DNA of 52,486 bases. It comes from Solirubrobacterales bacterium (GTDB lineage Bacteria > Actinomycetota > Thermoleophilia > Solirubrobacterales > 70-9). A program made the translations under genes and the position numbers. Below are positions 23,621 through 35,366 of this stretch, in pieces. Position 1 is the first letter of the stretch; each line of letters starts with the position of its first letter. The notes below the pieces were generated by a model that worked only from the letters and a program-made list of their open reading frames with translations, did not search any database and was not told the DNA's origin. The DNA lies in assembly GCA_025936755.1 (NCBI GenBank), contig JAICSS010000019.1, positions 1 through 52,486 of the forward strand. The letters are read 5' to 3'.

Positions 23621-24403
23621 ATGGGTGAACTGACCATGGCTATCGCCGCGGTGTTGGCGCTTATCTGGGCGCTGCTGGGTGACGATCTCAAGGCTTGGTC
23701 ACCGAAGATCGCTGAACGCCTGATCCGCCACTCAGCCGAGCGATTGCCCGCCCCGTTCAACCAGCGTTTCCGCGAGAAGTGGCTGCAAGAGCTGAAGGAA
23801 CTCCCGGAAGGAGCCGTCTGGAGCCGGATCGCCCTGGCCGTGATCAAGTACCTGTCGCTAGCTCCCCACCTCGATGACACCTTGTCGACGAAGGAGCCAA
23901 GGCGTCAGATTGCGAGCTTCGACACCAAGCTCCTCTACACGATGCGGACGCGAGGTCATGGAGTGCGGCGGGAGACCGTTGCGATAGCGGCGACCAAGGC
24001 CGGCAACAATGGGCTCGTCTGGCTGCTGATCAATCTCATCCTCGCAGCGATCGACCCAGAGCATCGTGAAGCCTGGCTAATAGCAGCGGTTCTCGTCCCA
24101 GCCAGCATCTTCTTCGCCTACGTATTGCGGCTACTCATCAGACGCCCCCGTCCCGTTCTCGAAGGACTTCCTCCCATCGGAGCTGCACCGAATTCTCTCG
24201 CTCTCCCGTCCGCCCACGCCTTCAGCTCCTTCGCCGTAGCCGTGACGATGATCCGAATCGATCCGGCTACCTCCTTCGCCCTCCTGATAGCCGTGGGAAT
24301 CAGCCTAAGCCGCCCCTACCTCGGCCTGAATCGCCCGTCAGACGTACTCGCAGGCGCGATGCTCGGAGGAGCACTCGGACTGATCGTGCCGGTTTCGCTC
24401 TAG
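23621..24403 (+). CDS. PAP2-superfamily membrane phosphatase-like protein with altered active site
   Basis: 260 residues from ATG 23621. The N-terminal 70 residues (ERLIRHSAERLPAPFNQRFR, EKWLQELKELPEG) resemble a short domain seen fused to varied actinobacterial proteins. A PAP2 membrane domain follows: RRPRPVLEG (motif 1), LALPSAHAFSSFAVAV (motif 2, PSxH), and SRPYLGLNRPSDVLAG (motif 3). In motif 3 the nucleophilic His of SRxxxxxHxxxD is Asn, so phosphatase activity is doubtful. Its lower GC resembles the island starting just downstream; it may be an older insert. Confidence 0.75.
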   Translation: MGELTMAIAAVLALIWALLGDDLKAWSPKIAERLIRHSAERLPAPFNQRFREKWLQELKELPEGAVWSRIALAVIKYLSLAPHLDDTLSTKEPRRQIASFDTKLLYTMRTRGHGVRRETVAIAATKAGNNGLVWLLINLILAAIDPEHREAWLIAAVLVPASIFFAYVLRLLIRRPRPVLEGLPPIGAAPNSLALPSAHAFSSFAVAVTMIRIDPATSFALLIAVGISLSRPYLGLNRPSDVLAGAMLGGALGLIVPVSL

Positions 24404-24432
24404 GGCTATCGGCGTTGGGCTGGTTCAAGTGT

Positions 24433-24449
24433 GACCTCCGGCTTGAAAG
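24433..24449. repeat. Candidate left attachment site (attL) of the island
   Basis: GACCTCCGGCTTGAAAG matches 16 of 17 bases of the tRNA-Glu anticodon-loop/stem region at 35296-35312, in the same orientation. The two copies bracket about 10.9 kb of accessory genes with a decayed integrase. The site also forms a small CCTCC/GGAGG hairpin (24435-24453), which could be a chance terminator for the PAP2-like gene. Confidence 0.45.
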
Positions 24450-24522
24450 GAGGAGGGGCGTCCGCGCCGCCAGCGAGATTGCGCCGGCGATGTGACCGAG
24501 ATGCGACCCCATTCGTCGCCAC

Positions 24523-25452
24523 TTAGAGCAGGTGTGCGTAACGTCGGAGTCCAGCTTTATCCACGCCCCGACGAGCAAAAAAACGGAAGCGCCAAATGTC
24601 GGTACTGAACTGGCGTCGTCGCAAGATCCGGTAGGCATCCGACGCATCGTCGTCATCGGGAAACCGCAGGTGGCGCTGGGCGATCCAGCCGATCACATCG
24701 ACGAGTTGGATCAGCGGCTCCGCGTGGGACTCGGGGAAGCGGGGGAGGCCGTCGAAGAAAGACACCAAGTCGATGCCCGAGTTCGAAGAGCCGTGGGTGG
24801 TGAGGAGCGGGTGGCCGGCCTGCTGATAATCGACCGGCAGATCCAGAGCCATCGCGTCGGTGGCGAGAATTGGAAATAGGATACTGGTGAGCAGGCGCTC
24901 TCCATAGCGATCTTTAGCGTCGAAGAGCAGCTGAGGCGAGCACCAATCTTGGCGCCAGTGGCGACCTCGGTACCGTGAAATTGAAGCCTGAACGGCGTCG
25001 TGAACGTGGCGGGGCATGACAATTCCGTACTCGACAAAGGACGGGGAGGAAGCACCTCGGCGGAGCAGGCGGCGCACTTCATCGCCGCGCCCCGCATAGG
25101 CCGGGTGGGTAGAGCCGCGTTCCTGAGAAGCCTGCCAGGTCTTCTCGAAGATCGAGACCTGCTCATCTCGCCAGGGCTCAACCTCGGCCCCCGGGAAGAT
25201 CTCGTTATCGATTACGGTCGCGGTCCAGATCAGTTCCTGGTTGGCGAGGAAGATCGCGACCTCGCGCCGTTGATCTGCGTCTAACTTGGAGGCGTGCAGC
25301 TCCGACACTTCCCAACTGGCGCAGTGCGTCTGGACGAAAGCTGCAAGCACCGGACGCAGCGATGGCGGACACACCAGCGTCGTCAGGACCGAGCATTCAA
25401 ACGAGGTTCTCTGCAGAGCGAAAGACCCCGACTCATCAGTCGCATAGATCAC
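24523..25452 (-). CDS. DUF3800-like protein
   Basis: 309 residues. The opening IYATDESGSF and the later SELHASKLDADQRREVAIFL fit DUF3800, a family with an RNase H-like fold and conserved acidic residues that often sits in defence islands. Further acidic stretches (DAKDRYGERLL; LIQLVDVIGWIAQRHL) match the family's C-terminal pattern. The role is unproven; a nuclease-like function is plausible. It lies 12 bases after the DUF4145-like gene, forming a two-gene operon. Confidence 0.65.
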   Translation of the reverse strand: MIYATDESGSFALQRTSFECSVLTTLVCPPSLRPVLAAFVQTHCASWEVSELHASKLDADQRREVAIFLANQELIWTATVIDNEIFPGAEVEPWRDEQVSIFEKTWQASQERGSTHPAYAGRGDEVRRLLRRGASSPSFVEYGIVMPRHVHDAVQASISRYRGRHWRQDWCSPQLLFDAKDRYGERLLTSILFPILATDAMALDLPVDYQQAGHPLLTTHGSSNSGIDLVSFFDGLPRFPESHAEPLIQLVDVIGWIAQRHLRFPDDDDASDAYRILRRRQFSTDIWRFRFFARRGVDKAGLRRYAHLL

Positions 25453-25464
25453 CGCTCGAAGGCC

Positions 25465-26115
25465 TCAAGGATCGACAGACCGTTTCAGTGCTTCTTCTTT
25501 TCGTTTCTCGAACGCCGTACTCACCCGGATCAAATTGGCGGATCCCCGATAGAGGAAGTCAAGGAGAGCATCGATGAAGCCCCGGATCAATGGGACGTCA
25601 GCGTTCTCTACCTCAAGCTCCTTGAGGTGGCCGCCATAGTTGCGGTAGGTGTAGACAAGGTGGGCCTGTTTGACGAGCCCCTCGGGCACGCCGGCCTCCT
25701 GAATCAGGGCGTTCAATTGATCTCTCTGTGAGAGGTCCTGCGAGATCGCCTTATCAGCACAGATCGCTTCCAGCAGGCGGCCTGCGCGGACGGCGAATGC
25801 ATCCGGCGCGTGCTGGAGCTCCAACATCGCTAGATAGCGCTCTGCAATGGGACTAGGGAGACCATCCAGGGGTTTGTCCAGAGGAAAGATGATCTCGGGC
25901 TCAACCTCGTCGGACTCCATATAGCCATCGATCCATTGATATTCAGAGAGAGTTAGGCCCTTACAGCCAGTGCATCGATCAACCTGGGCTATGCGCTGCA
26001 CCGTGATCTCGTCCCAGCTGTCTCCGACCCGAATGGTCTGCGTCGCGCCGCTGAGGACCACGTGCCCCTTGCACTCGACCGTTCCCTCACGTCCACAGTG
26101 ACGACAGCGCTCCAT
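25465..26115 (-). CDS. DUF4145-like protein with N-terminal zinc ribbon
   Basis: Best start is ATG 26115 (216 residues), directly before MERCRHCGREGTVECKG; the open frame continues upstream without sense. Two CxxC pairs (CRHC at about 4-7 and CTGC at about 45-48) suggest a zinc ribbon. The C-terminal half (AVRAGRLLEAICADKAISQD, then LIQEAGVPEGLVKQAHLVYT) is DUF4145-like, a helical domain recurrent in restriction and defence proteins. Co-transcribed with the DUF3800-like gene and divergent from 26214-26765. Confidence 0.68.
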   Translation of the reverse strand: MERCRHCGREGTVECKGHVVLSGATQTIRVGDSWDEITVQRIAQVDRCTGCKGLTLSEYQWIDGYMESDEVEPEIIFPLDKPLDGLPSPIAERYLAMLELQHAPDAFAVRAGRLLEAICADKAISQDLSQRDQLNALIQEAGVPEGLVKQAHLVYTYRNYGGHLKELEVENADVPLIRGFIDALLDFLYRGSANLIRVSTAFEKRKEEALKRSVDP

Positions 26116-26213
26116 GACGCGACAGAGGCTATCGAGAACTGCGTGCGGCCCTGGACCAGCGGTTCCCTCAACAGCATCTGGGTTCGCGAAGGCTGGCGAG
26201 TACTCTCGTCGCC

Positions 26214-26765
26214 ATGTTGATAGTCGCCACGAGCGTTTGGACTGTAGTGGGCTCTCTCGGTGCAGCCATAGGTGGAATAGGTGCTGCTGTAGGAGGAGTG
26301 GCGGCATGGAGAGCGGCGAGCGCCAGCCGAGCAACTAGTCGTGACGCGATGGAAGCGCTCGGCTTGGCAATTGCACCTTCTCTAACTGGCGAGGCCGGTA
26401 TTTCCCCGATCCAGGATGGCTCCGATACCGGCACTTGGAAGGCGCGGATCTTCAACCTCTCCTCGCAATTCACGGCAACCAAGCTCCATTTCGAGGCTCG
26501 CTTCGAAGACGGAGAACGCGCTGACCAAGAACTTGAGCGGCTTGCACCAGGAGAGACCTGGGAAATCCCACTTCGGGTTATCGGGATGCCGCCAGGCGGG
26601 CCACTTCTCAGCGAGGCGGGTAGGACGTCGGTCCTACGCTACGCAGACGAGAGAGGAATTCTTAGATACGAGCAACACTTCGGTTTCGTCGGACGGAGAA
26701 ACCCTGACGGCTCATGGACACCTTCTGTGTCGATGATCCCGACCAGTGATGCTCGGAGGATCTGA
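26214..26765 (+). CDS. Membrane-anchored protein of unknown function
   Basis: 183 residues. An N-terminal glycine-rich hydrophobic segment (about 2-34, VWTVVGSLGAAIGGIGAAVG) is followed by a short charged helix and a soluble beta-rich domain (ARIFNLSSQFTATKLHFEAR, LAPGETWEIPLRVIGMPPGG) that looks like an Ig-like sandwich. No family recognised. It precedes the TIR-like gene by 72 bases on the same strand and could be its partner; this is position-based inference only. Codon use and GC are lower than in the flanking backbone. Confidence 0.55.
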   Translation: MLIVATSVWTVVGSLGAAIGGIGAAVGGVAAWRAASASRATSRDAMEALGLAIAPSLTGEAGISPIQDGSDTGTWKARIFNLSSQFTATKLHFEARFEDGERADQELERLAPGETWEIPLRVIGMPPGGPLLSEAGRTSVLRYADERGILRYEQHFGFVGRRNPDGSWTPSVSMIPTSDARRI

Positions 26766-26837
26766 TCCGTGGGTGGGTCGGTTGCCCCTGGATAGTTGCA
26801 TGAGCGCAGCAGCCGCGCCCCTGCTAAGAATCGGATC

Positions 26838-27977
26838 ATGGCAGAGGATCTTCTGAGCGAACTGCGGAGCTTTGCCGAGAATTTCAAGGAGACTGCAGCT
26901 AACGGGGAGTCACAAACGAAAGAGCCCCTTCGGGAGGTCATGGATGCGGCAGCGCAGATCGGCAAAGCCTGGTCAGGCTCGAACCTGGGATACCAGAGCC
27001 GCGTCTACTACGCCGGCCTCGAGTCGCCGCCGCCTGGAGCCCACTTTGATTCCGAGTGGGGTTTCCACGGCGTGTTCCAAGGCACCACGGGCGACTGGAG
27101 GGAGTTCGACTTCGACGCCGTCATTGCCGCGCTCTACGCCCTGAGCGGCCGCGAGAACCTCAACCCCGAGGCCGACCAAGCGACCGAGGCAACCGCCCTA
27201 CTGGAAGCAACTAAGCCCCAAGTCGTATCGGTCCTGCGTGCCTGGCTAGCGCAGCACGAGGACGCGCTAGTGGCGGAGCTTGCAGAGGAGGCTTCAAAAG
27301 TCGAAGCGATGAGCGAGCGAGCGGCGCTAACGGCGCTCGTCGGTCGGGGCGGCACGAAAATTACTCGCGATACGACGGCCCTCAGCCAAGGCTGGCAGGC
27401 TGCCCCCCATCAGGTGGTGGAAGCACGAGCGATCTCAATCCGCTCGTCCTTTCAGAGTTGCGAAAAACTCGCCAGCCTGGCGTCTCGCGCCGCCGACCAT
27501 ATCGCCCGTCTTGAGCTCTCACAGACCGCAAGAGGCCAAGTCCCAGTCGCAGCAGGCGAAAACGTTTTCATCGGCCACGGCCGCGCCGGTGCCTGGCGCG
27601 AGCTGAAGGACTTCGTCAGCGAACGCCTCTCCTTGCCTTGGGATGAGTTCAACCGCCTTCCGGTCGCCGGAGTGACCAACATCGCTCGCCTCTCAGAGAT
27701 GCTCGATCAGGCCGCGATTGCTTTCCTCGTCTTGACTGCCGAGGATGAGATGGCAGACGGCGGTGAGCGAGCACGCCAGAACGTTGTCCACGAGGCCGGG
27801 CTCTTCCAGGGTCGCCTTGGCTTCGCCCGGGCGATCCTCCTATTGGAGGAGGGCTGCGAGGAGTTTTCAAACATCCAGGGGCTCGGCCAGATCCGTTTCC
27901 CAGCAGGCAACATCGCCGCCTCCTTTGAGGAGATTCGCGGAGTCCTTGAGCGCGAGGGGTTCCTCGATGCCGTCTAA
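26838..27977 (+). CDS. TIR-like (PF10137-type) nucleotide-binding domain protein, candidate defence NADase
   Basis: 379 residues from ATG 26838 (an upstream TTG at 26796 is less likely). The C-terminal 130 residues match the TIR-like domain used as NAD-degrading effector in some STING/CBASS systems: NVFIGHGRAGAWRELKDFV, AIAFLVLTAEDEMADGGERA, RQNVVHEAGLFQGRLGF and then EEGCEEFSNIQG. The N-terminal part (about 1-240) is unrecognised and presumably senses the trigger. No CD-NTase or STING gene is adjacent. Likely abortive-infection protein, inferred from domain and neighbourhood. Confidence 0.8.
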   Translation: MAEDLLSELRSFAENFKETAANGESQTKEPLREVMDAAAQIGKAWSGSNLGYQSRVYYAGLESPPPGAHFDSEWGFHGVFQGTTGDWREFDFDAVIAALYALSGRENLNPEADQATEATALLEATKPQVVSVLRAWLAQHEDALVAELAEEASKVEAMSERAALTALVGRGGTKITRDTTALSQGWQAAPHQVVEARAISIRSSFQSCEKLASLASRAADHIARLELSQTARGQVPVAAGENVFIGHGRAGAWRELKDFVSERLSLPWDEFNRLPVAGVTNIARLSEMLDQAAIAFLVLTAEDEMADGGERARQNVVHEAGLFQGRLGFARAILLLEEGCEEFSNIQGLGQIRFPAGNIAASFEEIRGVLEREGFLDAV

Positions 27978-28024
27978 GGCTGCCCGGTCACTCAGCCCAG
28001 GTAGCGAGGGACCTTTGGCTGCAA

Positions 28025-28261
28025 TCAGGCTGCAGCGCGGCGAGCTCTACGGGCTCGTTTACTAGCCGGACGAGCGGGAGCCGCCTTGACCTGGATGATC
28101 TTCTGGGCACCACCGCCCATGCCGATGACGATGTCGCCGAGCGGACGATCGGCGAGCTCGATTAGTTTCTGCCGAAGATCCTCGTCGAGTTCCGATGAAT
28201 CCCAGACGGCTACGAAGCCGTCATGAAGCTCATGGCGGGTTGCTTTTTGCCTAGCTGCCAT
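28025..28261 (-). CDS. Small protein with basic tail downstream of the SIR2 gene
   Basis: 78 residues from ATG 28261, preceded by AAGGTGG. An acidic/helical first half (FVAVWDSSELDEDLRQKLIE, LADRPLGDIVIGMGGG) ends in a Lys/Arg/Ala-rich tail (KAAPARPASKRARRARRAAA) that might bind nucleic acid. No family recognised. It lies 54 bases after the SIR2-GAF-like gene on the same strand and is probably its operon partner, perhaps regulator, inhibitor or adaptor (inference). Confidence 0.6.
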   Translation of the reverse strand: MAARQKATRHELHDGFVAVWDSSELDEDLRQKLIELADRPLGDIVIGMGGGAQKIIQVKAAPARPASKRARRARRAAA

Positions 28262-28315
28262 CAATCCACCTTATACCCGCCGCCGGATGGGCTGACCACC
28301 TTGCGAGGCGTTTGA

Positions 28316-29869
28316 TCATCCGCTTCCTGCTTCGGATATGCCGTCGCCTGCTGGCGGCGAATCCCCTGCTTTTCCCTCTTCGCCGGCACCAATGACGGCC
28401 GCCACCAAACGCATTGCGACGCTCTGGAGCGCCGAATGCAAGGCGGCTTCGATGCCTTCGGGCAGCTTGGTTAGGACACTTGCCTTGCCAGGCCGATCCG
28501 AAGAAATGGTCAGAGCCCCGAGTGGCAGTCGCGTGGGCTCAGCCATGACTAGAGGCAGCCCTCTGACAAAGTGCCAGCGCGAGGCATAGGTGTCGCGATC
28601 GAACTCCATGATGGTCCCTTGGCAGAGGGTTCTGACCGAAACCCAGTTGCTTGCGGCGCCGAGCGGCACTGGGGTAACGGTGGAGGGGTCTTGGTGGGCG
28701 CGATCGCTGTGAGCCCACCCGACAAGTCCCGTTCCGTCCTCATCAAGTACCCAGACGGTCAGCGCCAACGTCTCCTCAACCTCAAGCCGTGCCAGCGAGA
28801 GCGTGTATAGAACAACGTCCTTAAGAAGGTCACGCAGCCCACTACTCAAGGCGACTTGGCGTTCCGCGAACCTCGACTGATCGCTCACGGCGAGGCCGCG
28901 CTCGAAACAACCGATAACTTCCCTGGCACGCTCGGTGACAGAGAGATAGTCAGCCGGGCCCACCTTTTTTCGGTGACCGACCTCGTAGAGGAACTGCGCG
29001 GCATCGGCGAAGTGGTCGACGAAAATCGCCTGTACGCCGCAGCGCCCCCAGCGCCGCCGTGCAGCCTCCTCCATTGCTGCGCGGACCGACGGTGATGCCT
29101 GTGGCTCGCCTTGGCGGACAAAGATTGCCGCGTGGCGTGGTTTCTCCGGGGCCTTATAGCCGTAGAGGTAGCGGATCAAGTTGGGATCGGCGAGGCTCAT
29201 GCCGACGAAGACGCAGGTCGAGCCATGAAGCCGCTCGGTTACTAGCTGCTCCTGCCAAGAGGTGCCGCGTTGCATGCGGTGGTAATGCTCCTCGGTCAGG
29301 ACGATCCCCTTCGGCGTTCCCTGACGACCAGCGAGACCGTGCAGATGGGTAACCGCGATGGTCCCGGCGGCTCGTTTGTGTGGTTCTCGATTCTGGGTGT
29401 AGGAGCGAATGTTGGTTCGGGCGGTGCCGGCGTCGATGAGGGCCTGCTCGAGAAGGTCGTCGTAGTTAGTGGTGAGGATCTCTGCCCGCTCGCCCCAGAT
29501 CTCGCGCAATGCTGCCACTTGGTGGGCAATCGGGCCGGGGGCAAAAGCCTCAGCACCGCGTCCTTCGTACAGCTCCGCGGGGATCAACTCCTCGAGCCTC
29601 TCTTTGGCCATCACTCCGACTACCGCCCCAGCGCCGAGCAGATCGTCCCGCTCGATCGTCGCGGCCACCCAGTTCGCCCGCTCCCCATTTTCTAGGTCTG
29701 GTAACTCGACGGCGACCCTCTCAAGCAGCTGTTCGATCAGCGCGCGCCAGCTCGGCAAACCCGCCTCCATCGAGGCGCCAGCGCCGACGAGTAGGGTCAA
29801 CTCGCCGGCGGAAGCGAGCCGCTCTATCAACGGTTCGACCTCAGGCTGGGCAAGAGAGGCAAAGCTCAT
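28316..29869 (-). CDS. SIR2-family protein with GAF-like C-terminal domain, candidate defence NADase
   Basis: 517 residues from ATG 29869 (an upstream in-frame start is less likely). The SIR2 part (about 1-290) has LTLLVGAGASMEAGLPSWRA, EILTTNYDDLLEQAL and THLHG, the NAD-binding and His motifs of the SIR2_2 type found in Thoeris- and Avs-type effectors. The C-terminal part (about 330-490) has a helix bundle and a beta-rich GAF-like domain (TLALTVWVLDEDGTGLVGWA, RLPLGALTISSD), a likely ligand sensor. Fusion of NADase and sensor suggests a one-protein abortive-infection system. Overlapping palindromes lie just upstream. Confidence 0.82.
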   Translation of the reverse strand: MSFASLAQPEVEPLIERLASAGELTLLVGAGASMEAGLPSWRALIEQLLERVAVELPDLENGERANWVAATIERDDLLGAGAVVGVMAKERLEELIPAELYEGRGAEAFAPGPIAHQVAALREIWGERAEILTTNYDDLLEQALIDAGTARTNIRSYTQNREPHKRAAGTIAVTHLHGLAGRQGTPKGIVLTEEHYHRMQRGTSWQEQLVTERLHGSTCVFVGMSLADPNLIRYLYGYKAPEKPRHAAIFVRQGEPQASPSVRAAMEEAARRRWGRCGVQAIFVDHFADAAQFLYEVGHRKKVGPADYLSVTERAREVIGCFERGLAVSDQSRFAERQVALSSGLRDLLKDVVLYTLSLARLEVEETLALTVWVLDEDGTGLVGWAHSDRAHQDPSTVTPVPLGAASNWVSVRTLCQGTIMEFDRDTYASRWHFVRGLPLVMAEPTRLPLGALTISSDRPGKASVLTKLPEGIEAALHSALQSVAMRLVAAVIGAGEEGKAGDSPPAGDGISEAGSG

Positions 29870-29887
29870 CGTTCTTGAGCCAGAGCC

Positions 29888-29904
29888 ACCACGTGGTCGA
29901 CCAC
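29888..29904. promoter_or_regulatory. Overlapping palindromes upstream of the SIR2 gene
   Basis: ACCACGTGGT (29888-29897) and the perfect 12-bp palindrome GTGGTCGACCAC (29893-29904) overlap by five bases, ending about 19 bases before the SIR2 start. They probably form an operator for this gene. The rest of the 29905-30143 gap shows only weak promoter-like sequence (TTGCGA at 30105-30110) toward the nuclease gene. Confidence 0.45.
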
Positions 29905-30143
29905 AATCACCGCTAGAAGGCAACCACGCTCGGAGTGATCAGTCACCGGCATCCCGGCTTCGGCCAGTGGATTCCGCGTGCGCGATGCTCCTCCTCGGTT
30001 GACTCGATCCTCCCTTCCCCGACCGATCCATCACCCGATCTTAGGTCTTGCAGAGGACGGGGCGAGCCAACTTAGGCGTGATTCGCGAATCTCGTCGTTC
30101 CCATTTGCGACCACCGTCGGACTTGTAGAGATATGCTGGTCGC

Positions 30144-31235
30144 TTGGAGGCACCACCGACTCCGGTAACCCGACCTCGAAGAAGATTCGGACCCAAGGAT
30201 CTGCGGGACCTTACCCGTCCGCAGAAGCGCAAACTGGCACAGGTTGTGCTCACTGAGCCTGGGGCGCGGATCGTCGACTACAACCATCCTGCGGGTTACG
30301 ACGAATTCGTACTTGAGGTGTTCCCACTCTGGACTCGCCGACGACTCCGAGCCCGGGTGATGACTGCGCCCTTGACCCAGAAGGATGTTGATCGTCTGGC
30401 CCAGCGCGTAACCGAAGAGGGGGACGCGGAAGGGCTCATCCTTGCGGTGCATGATTCGAGTACTCCTCAGCTTGACTTTCCTTCCCAGGTGTCCGTTGTC
30501 AATGCTTCTGAATTGATTGCGCGCCTCGAGCGATCCGCCCTTATCGGCTGGAGAGACAGAAAACCATCTCCCTCCTACGACTTACTCGCCACCCAGCGAG
30601 TTCTTGATCGAGACGCCTCCTTCCTCGATCCTGTCGGCATCCGCTGGCTACCAACGTTGGCGCTAAACGAGCTGCCGTTGGATCTCAGAGATGGCGACCT
30701 AGAACCACAGGACGCCCTGGAGCGCTTAGCTTTCCGCTTGTTAACTTCGGTCTTTAGATTTGGCGGAGAGAGGTACGGAGAGGCGAAGCGAGGACAACGA
30801 TTGCCCGATGCCTTACTCACCTTCCAGGCTAAAGATCTGACTCTCGTTGGCGTACTTCTTGATTGCAAGGCAGCAGCCAGTGGATACACGATGGAGAGTG
30901 ACCACGAACTACGCTTTCATCAATACGTTTCATCATTGGCACCGGAACTCGCCGAGCGAGGTATTGCACTCCGCTACGTCGCCGTTTTGTCATCGTCGTT
31001 CCCAGGTCGATCAGGGCGTCGGCATCCTTTCCATGCCAGGAACAAGAAGATGATGGAAAAGGTTGGAGTGCAGCTTTCTTATCTGCGTGCGGTTGACTTC
31101 GCACGAGCGGCGGCTTTCGTCATTTCCAAAGAACTCTCTCCCGCAGCCCGTGAAGGCTTAGATTGGGACATGGTCTTCAGCACGGGCCTTGTGACCCAGG
31201 CTGACCTTCCTTCATTGATTGTCGAGCCTCTATAA
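30144..31235 (+). CDS. Two-part PD-(D/E)XK nuclease-like protein, first gene of a Qat-like operon
   Basis: 363 residues from TTG 30144; no ATG or GTG is available nearby. The N-terminal part (about 50-140) resembles an Mrr-like endonuclease fold without clear catalytic residues (VEVFP-like strands, WTRRRLRARVMTAPLTQKDV, VSVVNASELIARLE). The C-terminal part has an intact PD-(D/E)XK arrangement: RLPDALLTF with D222, then VGVLLDCKAAASGYTM with D240-x-K242, after an LERLAFRLLTSVFRFGGERY helix. It is probably a DNA endonuclease. The stop abuts the next gene's ATG with no gap. In canonical Qat this place is held by the ATPase QatA. Confidence 0.72.
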   Translation: MEAPPTPVTRPRRRFGPKDLRDLTRPQKRKLAQVVLTEPGARIVDYNHPAGYDEFVLEVFPLWTRRRLRARVMTAPLTQKDVDRLAQRVTEEGDAEGLILAVHDSSTPQLDFPSQVSVVNASELIARLERSALIGWRDRKPSPSYDLLATQRVLDRDASFLDPVGIRWLPTLALNELPLDLRDGDLEPQDALERLAFRLLTSVFRFGGERYGEAKRGQRLPDALLTFQAKDLTLVGVLLDCKAAASGYTMESDHELRFHQYVSSLAPELAERGIALRYVAVLSSSFPGRSGRRHPFHARNKKMMEKVGVQLSYLRAVDFARAAAFVISKELSPAAREGLDWDMVFSTGLVTQADLPSLIVEPL

Positions 31236-31928
31236 ATGGGCACGTCGACCTCATATAGAGCTCCTAGTGTTCCTCGCTGGCAAGCCTTCGTCGTAGCCTT
31301 TCAGCAGGGTCTACCCCTTGAGCGGGTCCGTTCCGAGTTGTTCAACGCTGGCGACGATTGGGAAAACGCTCTAGCGGCATCTGGAGTTGGTGCGTTCGCG
31401 GCAGCAATCGCCCAAGCCTGGGAGACGCTTCCTGATCGTCTTCAGGCTCAGGATCGGCCCGAGGCCGCGATTCTCGCCCTAGCTTCTGAGGCTCGCCACG
31501 CGGCAGCCCACGAGGAGCCAACTGCCGCGCTGGCTTTAGCTGAGCGGGCTTTCACCGCCATCCTCAGTCGGACTGCCAGCGGCGAGGAAGCACTAAGCGC
31601 AAGAAGCGCCGAGAGCGCCGCAGCAGAGTTCACGCGGGCAAGGACGGAAGCACCACAGCGTCTTGTCGGCGCTTACCTCCAGGAGTTGCTGGGCCAATAC
31701 GCCAAGCATGTCGCCTCCCGCGAGACGGGCACCCTTACGGAAGGCCCAAGCCCTTTGCGCGTTGGAGAGATCCGCCCGCTCATACGCCAGCTTGCCGAAA
31801 GTGCCGAAGCTACCGCCGAGGGGGTCGTCAATCCAGGCGCTACGCCCGACGAGGTGAAGAACCGCTGGGCCAGCATAATTCGCGAGGCCTTCGCTCGCGG
31901 GCGCACGATTCCAGAGGGCCCCCAGTGA
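31236..31928 (+). CDS. QatB-like protein with MGTS N-terminus
   Basis: 230 residues, mostly alpha-helical and Ala/Glu-rich. The N-terminus MGTSTSYRAPSVPRWQAF resembles the MGTS-x-S opening of QatB proteins, where a flexible Gly-start tail precedes a helical body. The next gene is a QueC/QatC-like enzyme overlapping by four bases (GTGA). QueC-like enzymes of defence loci have been reported, as I recall, to attach a deazaguanine to the N-terminal glycine of such partners; Gly2 here would be the acceptor after Met removal. The QatB call rests on the N-terminus and gene order, not a full alignment. Confidence 0.65.
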   Translation: MGTSTSYRAPSVPRWQAFVVAFQQGLPLERVRSELFNAGDDWENALAASGVGAFAAAIAQAWETLPDRLQAQDRPEAAILALASEARHAAAHEEPTAALALAERAFTAILSRTASGEEALSARSAESAAAEFTRARTEAPQRLVGAYLQELLGQYAKHVASRETGTLTEGPSPLRVGEIRPLIRQLAESAEATAEGVVNPGATPDEVKNRWASIIREAFARGRTIPEGPQ

Positions 31929-33226
31929 AGCGTTTTTCGGTCGTGGTCAATGACTGTGCAGCACCTGAAGTACCGGGCATCCTCCACGTACGAAGCCAAG
32001 ACACCGCATACGGAGAAAAGAACTTTCTGCTCCGATATGACGAGCTCGCAGAAGGCCTCCCGCGGCAGCTAGTCGATCGGGAGCTTGATCTTCTCGAAGT
32101 AGCCGGTCACCTCTTCGCGACTGACATTGCGTGCGAGCGCGGGGCGGGAGATGTTGAGTGGAACCGTGCCATCAAAGTGTGGCTGCCGGTACGGAACCCG
32201 GACTACTGGACGACCCAGCGGGCTGTTATTGAGGGAGTGTGGACGGACCTAACTGGTGATGACATCGAAATCAGGTTTGAGCAGGCTACTGATCCTTTGG
32301 AAGCTCCTCGAATGGCCAAAGCGCCATTTCCGAACCACGACGGGATCGCTCTACTTTCTGGCGGCCAGGATTCCTTCGCTGGAGCCCTTGACCTCTTGGC
32401 ACACGGCCACCATCCTCTCTACCTCTCCCATGTGGCAAGTGGAGCTACCAGTTCCGCTCAGAAATCGGTCGAGGCCCACTTGAGAAAGCGGCCGGAACCC
32501 CAAGTGAAGCGCCTAAAGCTGTCTGCCCGAAAAGCTCCTGGCAAGTACTTTCCCGGCCAAGAGTCGTCTCAACGCAGTCGGACCTTCCTCTTTCTAGTCG
32601 CCGCAAGCGTAGTCGCCTCAGTAGGTGACAGCGCAAAGGTTTGGCTGAATGAGAACGGAGTCATGGCTCTGCACCTTCCCCTTACTCCTGCTCGCATTGG
32701 AAGCTTGTCGACTCATACCGCAGCGCCCCCAATCCTGAGCCGCATTGAAGCGCTAGTTGGCGATGTCCTCGGCAAGCCGACGGCTTTGGAGAACCGGCTG
32801 GTTGGCCTGACCAAGCCCGAGGTCATCGAGTTAGCAGTGTCCCTCGGTGCTAAAGACGAGATGCAGGATACGGTTTCATGTTGGCAGATCGGCCGAACCC
32901 GAGAGCACTGTGGTATTTGCGCGCCTTGCATCCTCCGTCGTGTGTCTTGCGAGGCCCATGGAGTCCCAGATGTCCAATATGCGGCCGATGTTTTCGACGA
33001 CTCCTCTGCACTGGATGACCCCAAGGCTCGGGACAACCTCGGGCATATGGTTTCTCTTATTCAGGACCTCAAGGAGCTCTCCGACGTAAACTTGGAGTAT
33101 GAGTACCCGGAGCTTCTTGGTGGACAGCCGATCCTCTCTCTAAGTGAATCGATTGCTCTTCACCGACGCTGGGCAGATCAAGCTGCCGCCGTTCTGTTCC
33201 GGCATTCTGTACCTAAGAACCTTTAA
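31925..33226 (+). CDS. QueC/QatC-like PP-loop ATPase
   Basis: 433 residues from GTG 31925. An N-terminal domain of about 135 residues, absent from housekeeping QueC, precedes the PP-loop ALLSGGQDSFAGAL (S145-S150). The C-terminal zinc site is C319, C329, C332, C335 (SCWQIGRTREHCGICAPC), the same spacing as QueC. QueC makes 7-cyano-7-deazaguanine from carboxy-deazaguanine with ATP and ammonia; defence-linked relatives (QatC, CBASS Cap9) use the chemistry differently. No queuosine-pathway gene (queD, queE, tgt) is nearby, favouring a defence role. TAATG junction with the next gene. Confidence 0.85.
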   Translation: MKRFSVVVNDCAAPEVPGILHVRSQDTAYGEKNFLLRYDELAEGLPRQLVDRELDLLEVAGHLFATDIACERGAGDVEWNRAIKVWLPVRNPDYWTTQRAVIEGVWTDLTGDDIEIRFEQATDPLEAPRMAKAPFPNHDGIALLSGGQDSFAGALDLLAHGHHPLYLSHVASGATSSAQKSVEAHLRKRPEPQVKRLKLSARKAPGKYFPGQESSQRSRTFLFLVAASVVASVGDSAKVWLNENGVMALHLPLTPARIGSLSTHTAAPPILSRIEALVGDVLGKPTALENRLVGLTKPEVIELAVSLGAKDEMQDTVSCWQIGRTREHCGICAPCILRRVSCEAHGVPDVQYAADVFDDSSALDDPKARDNLGHMVSLIQDLKELSDVNLEYEYPELLGGQPILSLSESIALHRRWADQAAAVLFRHSVPKNL

Positions 33227-33834
33227 TGACCCATATTACTTACGGCATCTTCCGTGCAGGCGTTCGCGACCCAGGCAAAACCCTGGCCTCATACACGGGC
33301 CAAAAACCGATACCGACGCCGTATCCAAGCGCAAGTGCATCAATCACCCGCTTCCACCGCGAGGGTCCTGACCAAGCTTGGAGCGTTCTAGATCAAGCGC
33401 TTTCATCAAGCTCCTACTGGGGAAGACCTGGGACTCCACAGGCTGGTTGGGCGAATGCGATACGAGAATGCTTTCAGGTGTACCGCGCTCTTGCTGAGCA
33501 AGACCAGCGGGTATCGATTGCGACCGGCGTCAACCGAGAACTCGTGCTTCCGCCTGATGACATTGGTGTCTATGTAGATGTGGTACTCCTCGACCCAAAT
33601 GGTTACTCACCACGTGTCGTTCTCTGGGATTCTAACCCCCTCACCCATAGCCGGGCCGTACTGTATGGAGCTCCTGTGTGGAGAGCCATGGAGGAAGAGA
33701 TGGGCGAAGGCCGAATCGTGGGGGTCGAAATCTGGAAGCTGCGAACCGGCGATCGAGAGTTGGTGCTACCGGCTGAGGCGGAAGCGGCCATGCCGGAAGT
33801 TGTTCAGATTGCTCGCCGAATAGCTGGCCCCTAG
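33226..33834 (+). CDS. Unrecognised fourth protein of the Qat-like operon, possibly a diverged nuclease
   Basis: 202 residues from ATG 33226, sharing one base with the QatC-like stop. I do not recognise a named family. The middle (IGVYVDVVLLDPNGYSPRVV, then LWDSNPLTHSRAVLYGAPVW, and GRIVGVEIWKLRTGDRELV) has the strand order of a PD-(D/E)XK nuclease with D near VDVVLLD and W-D-S-N where ExK is expected; the missing Lys makes activity uncertain. It takes the place of QatD (a TatD nuclease) in canonical Qat. The call is inference from pattern and position. Confidence 0.6.
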   Translation: MTHITYGIFRAGVRDPGKTLASYTGQKPIPTPYPSASASITRFHREGPDQAWSVLDQALSSSSYWGRPGTPQAGWANAIRECFQVYRALAEQDQRVSIATGVNRELVLPPDDIGVYVDVVLLDPNGYSPRVVLWDSNPLTHSRAVLYGAPVWRAMEEEMGEGRIVGVEIWKLRTGDRELVLPAEAEAAMPEVVQIARRIAGP

Positions 33835-33840
33835 AGACCG

Positions 33841-34978
33841 CTAGCCCACGGTCTCTCTCACGAGATCATGGCTCCGTCCCACCGGATGCGTGTACCGCGC
33901 AAGCATGGTCTCGACCGATGACCTGCAATCTCGGCTAGGTCCGCATCATCTACACCTGAGGCTCGTAAATGCGTGACGTAAGAGTGGCGGCACTCGTGGG
34001 GGCGAATATCCAAGCCGGAGGCTTCTTGGGTCGGCTTCCAAAGGTCCCGGTAGAAGGTGCGCTCGCGCCAGAGGCGGCCGCGGGGCGTTGGGAAGAGGAG
34101 CTGGCAGTCGGGGCCGTTGAGGTTGATCTGCACTTCGAGCATCCAAGCGAGGGTCGCTGGCACCGGGACGATGCGACCAGCGTCGGGCTCGCCGTGGTCA
34201 ATCTTCGTGCCCTCGAGGATCTGGCCCTCGTGGGCGGTGCGGCGGACTTGGAGGGTTTCGCCGTCGAAGTCTTCGCGGCGTAGGGGCAGCACCTCCCCCA
34301 GCCTCAGACCGCAGTCGGTGAAGACCCGGACCATCGCCTCGTAGCGGCCAGCCGCCTTTGCGAAGCGGTGCATCTCCTCGAAGCTGAGGACGCGGATCGG
34401 TCTTGGCTTCCTCTTCGCTCGCGGGTCGTTGGCTCGGATGCGGATGCCCTTGAAGGGGTTGAGGTCGCAGACTTCATCGGTGATCGCGTCCTCGGCCATC
34501 GCTGAGAGGGCGCGGAGGATGCCTACGGCCCCGGTGGTTGCGCGACCTTCGGTCCTGAGGATGTGGTCGACCAGGGCGAGCGTGTGGCGGCGGCGCAGCT
34601 CGCGCAGCGACCAGTCCTCAGCGGGATGCCCTCGATCTCAACGTTGGCAACTCGGCTGATGCGGTGGTCGTTCGTTGCGTTCGTGCGCTCGGATCGCGGG
34701 TGGCGCTCGGTCCAGGTGGCGGCGTAGTCGCCGAGGGTGTCCGGCCGATCCGAGAGTCCGTATGGCTCGTCGATGGCTTTCTGCGCATCGGCCCTCCGCC
34801 GAAAGGTGCCTCTGCGACGGTTCCAGGTGGGCTTCGCGATGTGGCGCTTCAGGCACGAATTCGGAGGGGTCGCTCCTATGGCCCGATACACCGGCCCAGA
34901 TGGCAATGTGAAGTAACGCCTCTGAGAATCAACGGTGTGCTTGGGAAAAACAGAGAACGAACCTGCCGTCCGTTGCAT
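33841..34978 (-). pseudogene. Tyrosine-type integrase with two frameshifts
   Basis: The product reads across three frames. The N-terminal and core-binding part lies at about 34620-34978 (WNRRRGTFRRRADAQKAIDE, TLGDYAATWTERHPRSERTN). Near 34616 a G seems lost from a GGG run, shifting to the frame of 33925-34615 (DWSLRELRRRH, DCGLRLGEVLPL with the first catalytic Arg, HECRHSYVTHL with HxxR). Near 33911-33918 a 4-base tandem unit (TCGG) seems deleted; the last part, ETMLARYTHPVG with the nucleophilic Tyr, is read in another frame to the TAG at 33841. Sequencing error is possible for either shift. It explains how the island arrived and suggests it is now stuck. Confidence 0.8.
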
Positions 34979-35001
34979 AGGCGGCGACTATCATCGCCGG
35001 C

Positions 35002-35270: not shown

Positions 35271-35366
35271 TGCGCCCGACGGGAGTCGAACCCGCGACCT
35301 TCGGCTTGAAAGACCGACGCTCTTTGGGCCCCCGAAAGGACCCGTTGACCACTGAGCTACGGGCGC
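35271..35366 (-). tRNA. tRNA-Glu (anticodon TTC) with an inserted hairpin in the D-loop
   Basis: Minus-strand cloverleaf: acceptor GCGCCCG/CGGGCGC, D-stem GCTC/GAGC, anticodon stem TCGGT/GCCGA with loop CTTTCAA, T-stem GCGGG/CCCGT with loop TTCGACT, discriminator A, no encoded CCA. The D-loop is about 31 bases instead of 8: after AGTGG comes TCAAC, a 6-bp hairpin GGGTCC-TTTCGG-GGGCCC (35326-35343) and AAA. The gene is 96 bases rather than about 73. It may be a decayed gene, one with a processed insert, or an unusual functional form. Confidence 0.8.
35296..35312. repeat. Candidate right attachment site (attR) inside tRNA-Glu
   Basis: GACCTTCGGCTTGAAAG covers the tRNA anticodon loop, 3' anticodon stem and variable region, a known crossover position for tyrosine integrases. 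It matches 24433-24449 at 16 of 17 bases in the same orientation. Confidence 0.45.

Follow-up and report, generated by a model that had tools for sequence, protein, structure and literature searches.

A candidate compact Qat variant in Solirubrobacterales with a FokI-type nuclease gene beside QatB and QatC

In a 52,486-nucleotide stretch (positions 1 to 52,486) of contig JAICSS010000019.1 of a Solirubrobacterales bacterium (GCA_025936755.1), referred to here as the window, a short gene whose product opens with MGTS precedes a QueC-like gene. The arrangement raises the question of whether the N-terminal glycine of the first protein is a substrate of the second and, if so, what is attached to it. 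A sequence-only reading of this DNA had proposed that Gly2 accepts a 7-deazaguanine and that the tag may control a nuclease.

A QatC gene and its MGTS partner

The first gene (P0001; 31236 to 31928, plus strand) encodes 230 amino acids, opens with ATG GGC ACG TCG, and translates as MGTSTSYRAPSVPRWQAF. A TAA codon stands in frame directly 5' of this ATG, making a longer start impossible, and the last four bases of the gene (31925 to 31928) are shared with the QueC-like gene, which starts with GTG. The beginning MGTSTSYRAP and the overlap of the two genes had both been described in the sequence-only reading and were borne out, with the start at 31236.

By its sequence, the downstream protein (P0002, 433 amino acids; 31925 to 33226, plus strand), a QueC-family enzyme extended at both termini, is a QatC. 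It matched the PADLOC QatC model with an E value of 3.1e-58 and the solved QatC chains 9zee_B and 9vlk_A with 9e-37 and 1e-34, respectively. The NCBIfam QatC model NF041925 gave 212.2 bits, under its cut-off of 280, as did the QatC of genome G766 (locus L059), which is flanked by QatA and QatD (257 bits). Scores with the QueC models were 33.9 bits for Pfam QueC and 22.5 bits for TIGR00364 (cut-off, 150.3). P0002 carries SGGQDS at positions 145 to 150, an RxR...F stretch, an S-T-H-T loop (THT at 263 to 265), and zinc cysteines at 319, 329, 332, and 335; these residues establish, at the level of the primary structure, that its ATP and zinc motifs are intact. The S-T-H-T loop occupies the position of YPDC in canonical QueC, and the Tyr/Asp pair for the 7-deazaguanine base is absent.

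That the MGTS start and Gly2 of QatB are essential has already been published (Gao 2026; PMC13279940), and the same article gives as essential for Qat in PaQatB, besides G2, a stretch from 16 to 22 with Pro16 and Trp18. In P0001, the QatB hallmark takes the form of MGTS at positions 1 to 4 and P13-R14-W15, and it was found in all three of the cassettes described below. It lies within the N-terminal motif MGTSTSYRAPSVPRW (31236 to 31280, plus strand; P13-x-W15), where Gly2 is the proposed acceptor and 10 of the 15 alignment columns are invariant among the three cassettes, versus 44 of 218 columns in the remainder of the protein (Fisher one-sided p = 2.5e-4). Loss of Gly2 among homologues had been named as the observation that would speak against the sequence-only reading; the residue is retained in all three cassette members. 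Of 6,639 start codons that open a reading frame of 120 codons or more in the window and 26 further loci, 16 are followed by Gly-Thr-Ser, and 14 of these 16 belong to the gene immediately 5' of a QatC gene. Since the 26 loci had been picked for QatC or queuosine genes, the background rate is given by the remaining two Gly-Thr-Ser starts only; the occurrence of MGTS beside QatC exceeds chance.

The identity of P0001 was harder to establish. No QatB model from PADLOC or NCBIfam matched it up to an E value of 1, hhalign against six QatBs gave a probability of 11.6%, and PDB sequence searches with P0001, as well as with the proteins encoded on either side of the pair (P0003 and P0004), returned nothing of weight. 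The AlphaFold2 model of P0001 is of low confidence (pLDDT 56). Its top VIA-align match was 9y02_A (Z 8.2, rmsd 4.6, 164 residues; rank 1 of the 621 chains aligned), with the runner-up at Z 6.9 over 79 residues; as helical proteins with Z below about 13 may merely have a common arrangement, we regard this match as support rather than proof. The chain comes from a QatB-QatC complex, and our reading of it as the QatB rests on its length of 211 and its numbering from 64 to 287, which fit the ordered part of QatB in PMC13279940. The aligned core begins at residue 33 in P0001 and at residue 64 in QatB, indicating that the free tail of P0001 is shorter. On its own, the P0001 model produced no Foldseek match with an E value of at most 0.001, and QatB did not appear in the 50 matches listed; the QatB match surfaced only in the second look with VIA. 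Given its position directly 5' of qatC, the MGTS start, the P-x-W motif, and a QatB as the top structural match, P0001 is most likely a QatB that the sequence models miss.

A four-gene cassette within a defense island

The two genes are the middle ones of a cassette on the plus strand (30144 to 33834), in the order FokI-type nuclease, QatB, QatC, and RecB/Cas4-like protein. The nuclease gene (P0003, 363 amino acids, putative TTG start; 30144 to 31235, plus strand) abuts the ATG of qatB, and we take it to be the nuclease meant in the sequence-only reading. At the other end, the P0004 gene (202 amino acids; 33226 to 33834, plus strand) shares one base with the end of qatC. The Pfam model FokI_cleav_dom matched all three members of the P0003 family below its curated cut-off (best E value, 0.0059; 13.3 bits of the required 25 for P0003), and the residues E193, E213, D222, D240, and K242 (PD..DxK, here PD..DCK) are invariant in the three. 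The N-terminal part of P0003 had no matches, and neither did a PDB profile search with two sequences of the family. For P0004, none of the family models of PADLOC, Pfam, and NCBIfam matched. The ten best VIA rows for its model (pLDDT 56) were AdnA, Dna2, ACE1, a putative exonuclease, and Cas4, with Z between 5.9 and 6.6, and the best Foldseek E value was 8.5e-3, pointing to a RecB/Cas4-like PD-(D/E)XK fold. P0004 keeps D135, and the position of the catalytic lysine of the RecB motif reads N, N, and E in the three members, so that the (D/E)xK motif is absent. With this lysine replaced, the protein is probably catalytically dead and may bind DNA without cutting it.

To determine the distribution of the cassette, we searched 399 genomes of the class with P0002, which matched in 18, namely 14 with a clear QatC (E value of 1e-20 or better) and 4 with a weak partial match. 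One genome of the same genus (G274, an Actinomycetota MAG; locus L019, contig JAFDWO010000018.1) contains the same four genes in the same order at 50 to 62% identity. Searching more widely for QatC, in 396 genomes of the phylum, added another from a different family (G626; locus L061), again with the four genes in order and at 34 to 52% identity. The cassette is therefore known from three actinobacterial genomes, on the same strand throughout and with orthologues 34 to 62% identical. The nuclease profile matched in 1 of 395 genomes of the class of G626, and the P0004 profile matched in 2 of the 396 phylum genomes, in each case in the cassettes themselves; neither protein was thus seen without QatBC, in numbers that are small, with three cassettes known. 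Homologues of QatA or QatD were found neither in the 52-kb window nor in the 19.5 kb around the G274 cassette or the 14 kb around that of G626, in a search that did recover both at L059, used as a control.

A tree built from 25 QatCs groups the three members from the FokI cassettes in a single clade (100/100) and places all 18 KAP-linked sequences on the same side of a branch supported at 96/95. The QatCs of G212 and G186 adjoin a gene matching PADLOC RmrA (checked for G186) with a small gene after it. That of G476 (L060), with an MGTS partner, is flanked by two genes of about 1,300 codons, which we take to be PglY and PglX of BREX type 2, and this QatBC pair would then sit inside a BREX locus. 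Tree and neighbors together indicate that the accessory genes track the QatC phylogeny and that the QatB-QatC pair is constant.

A DNA-pattern scan of genome contigs for relatives of P0002 gave no match with a single sequence and, with an alignment of two sequences, only L033, which is the contig of the G274 locus. Searches of viral contigs yielded no relatives. QatC was present in 136 plasmid records, and plasmids searched for P0001, P0003, and P0004 gave no match. Recent transfer is suggested by L025 and L058, whose qatBC genes are almost identical and whose genomes belong to different families of the phylum. What is new here is the cassette of FokI-type nuclease, QatB, QatC, and RecB/Cas4-like protein without QatA or QatD and with its QatC in a separate clade. 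A search of full-text literature, with bioRxiv and most subscription papers outside its reach, found no FokI-linked Qat variant, and novelty is not proven by this.

The cassette is located in a low-GC island from 24000 to 35000 (about 0.57 to 0.63 in 2-kb windows versus about 0.70 outside). The same region contains a DUF4145 gene, a CAP12/Pycsar-type TIR gene (26796 to 27977), a SIR2/ThsA-like gene (28316 to 29923, minus strand), and an integrase (33858 to 34499, minus strand), near which lies a tRNA-Pro (35271 to 35366, minus strand). Around the island, no att repeat with a length of at least 22 bases was found.

Candidate adducts and the role of the QatB N terminus

Attachment of 7-deazaguanine has been shown for Cap9 of type IV CBASS only (PMC13279940, PMC11996544), and the Qat paper calls the QatC reaction unresolved (PMC13279940). 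The statement of the sequence-only reading that QueC-like enzymes of both CBASS type IV and Qat have been reported to attach this base is thus supported for the former and not for the latter. In Pseudomonas aeruginosa QatC, T278 and T280 stand where Cap9 and QueC hold 7-carboxy-7-deazaguanine (CDG) with Tyr and Asp, and defense was lost when they were replaced by Ala or restored to Tyr/Asp (PMC13279940).

We compared this pocket with the partner start at the 27 QatC loci with a readable upstream gene. The partner begins with MGT in 24 of them (MGTS in 22, MGTQ and MGTN in one each) and differently in three (L027, L030, and L031). All 24 MGT-partnered QatCs carry a T-x-[T/S] pocket loop versus none of the other three (T-R-A, S-R-T, and S-R-S), among sequences that are related and include the near copies L025 and L058, which are not independent. 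Such a pairing is expected if the two threonines serve a reaction at the N-terminal glycine. Left out of the 27 were L023, where the contig begins within qatC; L032, in which QatC was not detected; L062, with a truncated gene (loop TSRT); L063, which a transposase-like gene interrupts; and the archaeal L073 (SDGLDS in place of SGGxDS; loop TTRT).

L027 and L031 combine partners that lack MGTS (the one at L031 starts with MADGDYY) with an altered TxT pocket; at both, a further gene and then a small gene come next, and at L031 the first of these matches PADLOC RmrA (E value, 6e-27). At L030, a QatC-like protein of 620 amino acids with a partner lacking MGTS is found downstream of a gene of 925 codons, presumably a restriction-modification enzyme. 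L073 is a Natrinema plasmid with a QatC-like gene (L073:2864-5197); the gene directly upstream starts with MSEN and the one before with MGSA, leaving no MGTS gene directly upstream, and these two small genes could represent a split QatB.

Whether the hosts could supply CDG was assessed from their que genes. Canonical QueC (E value below 1e-50) occurs in 3 of the 14 QatC genomes of the class (G076, G080, and G086). The same three carry QueE, detected with a profile built from G076 and G080; in G086, which was absent from the build, QueE is a fragment at the end of a contig, and two weak partial matches in G231 (5e-6 and 2e-4) were excluded from the count. A QueD/PTPS match was found in four, i.e., these three and the genome of the window itself. 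The PTPS homologue of the window genome (C34, L035:6838-7236) was rejected as QueD, having no Cys in CxxxHGH and 36.7 of the 89.25 bits required by TIGR03367; it adjoins a dehydrogenase-like gene, away from QueE and QueC. Canonical QueC, QueE, and a Cys-bearing QueD are thus missing together from 11 of the 14, among them the window's host and G274, and these 11 seem unable to make CDG; several of the 14 are MAGs, yet completeness is 90% or more for 11 of the 14. A TGT gene occurs in 11 of the 14, the window's genome included, which fits salvage of queuosine precursors. PTPS was looked for in G626 and was absent. Among seven further QatC genomes of the phylum, PTPS occurs in four, so that absence of the pathway is no rule, and the QueE profile matched none of the seven, PTPS-bearing ones included, probably because it is too narrow there. 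The change in the pocket and the missing pathway make CDG an unlikely adduct here, with salvage, another route, or phage supply possible, and the adduct is probably not host-made CDG. The proposal of the sequence-only reading accordingly survives as regards a QatB-type partner with a conserved Gly2, and it is not supported as regards 7-deazaguanine as the adduct, given the Thr-x-Thr pocket and the missing que genes.

The reading that we favor is that the cassette represents a compact form of the Qat phage-defense system in which QatA and QatD have been swapped for the FokI-type nuclease and the RecB/Cas4-like protein; taken as one with the mechanism that follows, we give it even chances of being right. 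Methionine aminopeptidase would remove Met1 and expose Gly2, and the short N-terminal tail of QatB would enter the active site of QatC. There, QatC would couple a small carboxylate, activated with ATP, to the amine of Gly2. Modification of Gly2 is likely, because of the Qat genetics of other species (PMC13279940) and the conservation found here. The state of the QatB N terminus, in the complex or released, would then gate the FokI-type nuclease, which would cut phage or host DNA upon infection. Gating by the tag is suggested by gene linkage, and the three diverged genomes support a joint function and nothing more.

Other explanations share part of this evidence. QatC might attach CDG to Gly2 as Cap9 does, with the base taken up from outside or obtained by an unrecognized route. 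Cap9 so modifies a CD-NTase whose MGGS start the MGTS start resembles (PMC13279940, PMC11996544), the TGT genes might permit precursor salvage, and 3 of the 14 QatC genomes do have QueC, QueD, and QueE. We nevertheless consider CDG attachment unlikely, as the residues that recognize CDG are replaced by Thr-x-Thr, their restoration in Qat kills defense (PMC13279940), the pathway is lacking in the other 11 genomes, and the cassette contains no TGT-like reader of the Cap10 type. It is likewise improbable that QatB stays unmodified and that its N terminus acts as a plug or sensor in QatC, with ATP binding or hydrolysis alone signaling conformationally to the nuclease. Ordered QatB-QatC complexes exist, QatC activity could not be reconstituted, and modified QatB is unreported in the accessible text of PMC13279940, all of which would suit a plug; yet the change of Gly2 to Asp and a PP-loop double mutant each abolish Qat defense (PMC13279940), and conservation peaks at the extreme N terminus, as expected of an acceptor amine.

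The four genes might also adjoin by chance, with QatBC a separate pair and the nuclease an independent restriction enzyme, as could happen in a low-GC island (24 to 35 kb) that holds further defense genes and an integrase. This we regard as very unlikely, considering that identical genes in identical order and strand recur in three genomes, one of them from another family, with proteins only 34 to 62% identical, and that the cassette genes abut or overlap. A more speculative extension, and a long shot, is that in hosts without QueD, QueE, and QueC, a phage with its own 7-deazaguanine DNA-modification genes brings the substrate, which would itself be the infection signal, and the resulting tag on QatB releases the nuclease. 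If true, Qat-type enzymes would tag the N-terminal glycine of a partner with something that is not produced by an uninfected host.

Two comparative results sharpen the question, posed in the literature, of how QatC acts on QatB: QatC hosts that seem unable to make CDG, and the pairing of Thr-x-Thr with MGT. The presence of a FokI-type nuclease in place of QatA and QatD suggests a modular role for QatBC, as a switch to which different effectors can be coupled. DNA cutting by such a dedicated nuclease also offers a simple read-out of the function of an N-terminal tag.

Comparison with known systems

The PD..DxK region of the nuclease aligns with the FokI (type IIS) cleavage domain in all three members, whereas the cassette, unlike FokI, has no methyltransferase gene, the N-terminal part is unmatched, and the score is under the curated cut-off. 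P0002 shares the PP-loop and the zinc site with canonical QueC (preQ0 synthase) and differs from it by the S-T-H-T loop in place of YPDC and a score far under the TIGR00364 cut-off. With Cap9 and the CD-NTase of type IV CBASS, the cassette has in common a QueC-family enzyme adjoining a partner with an N-terminal glycine motif. In contrast to that system, none of the four proteins matches a CD-NTase or Cap10 (TGT family), the CDG-binding Tyr/Asp are replaced, and QatC has about 430 amino acids with extensions versus a median of about 185 residues for Cap9 (PMC13329287).

According to the same survey of the QueC family, about a third of its QatC cluster has QatA and QatD nearby (PMC13329287). 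Compared with qatABCD, the cassette has a FokI-type and a RecB/Cas4-like protein instead of QatA (KAP ATPase) and QatD (TatD nuclease), its QatB is shorter (230 amino acids), and its QatC belongs to a separate clade. The two systems nonetheless share the QatB-QatC core, with MGTS, P-x-W, SGGxDS, T-x-T, the four zinc cysteines, and a qatB stop that overlaps the qatC start.
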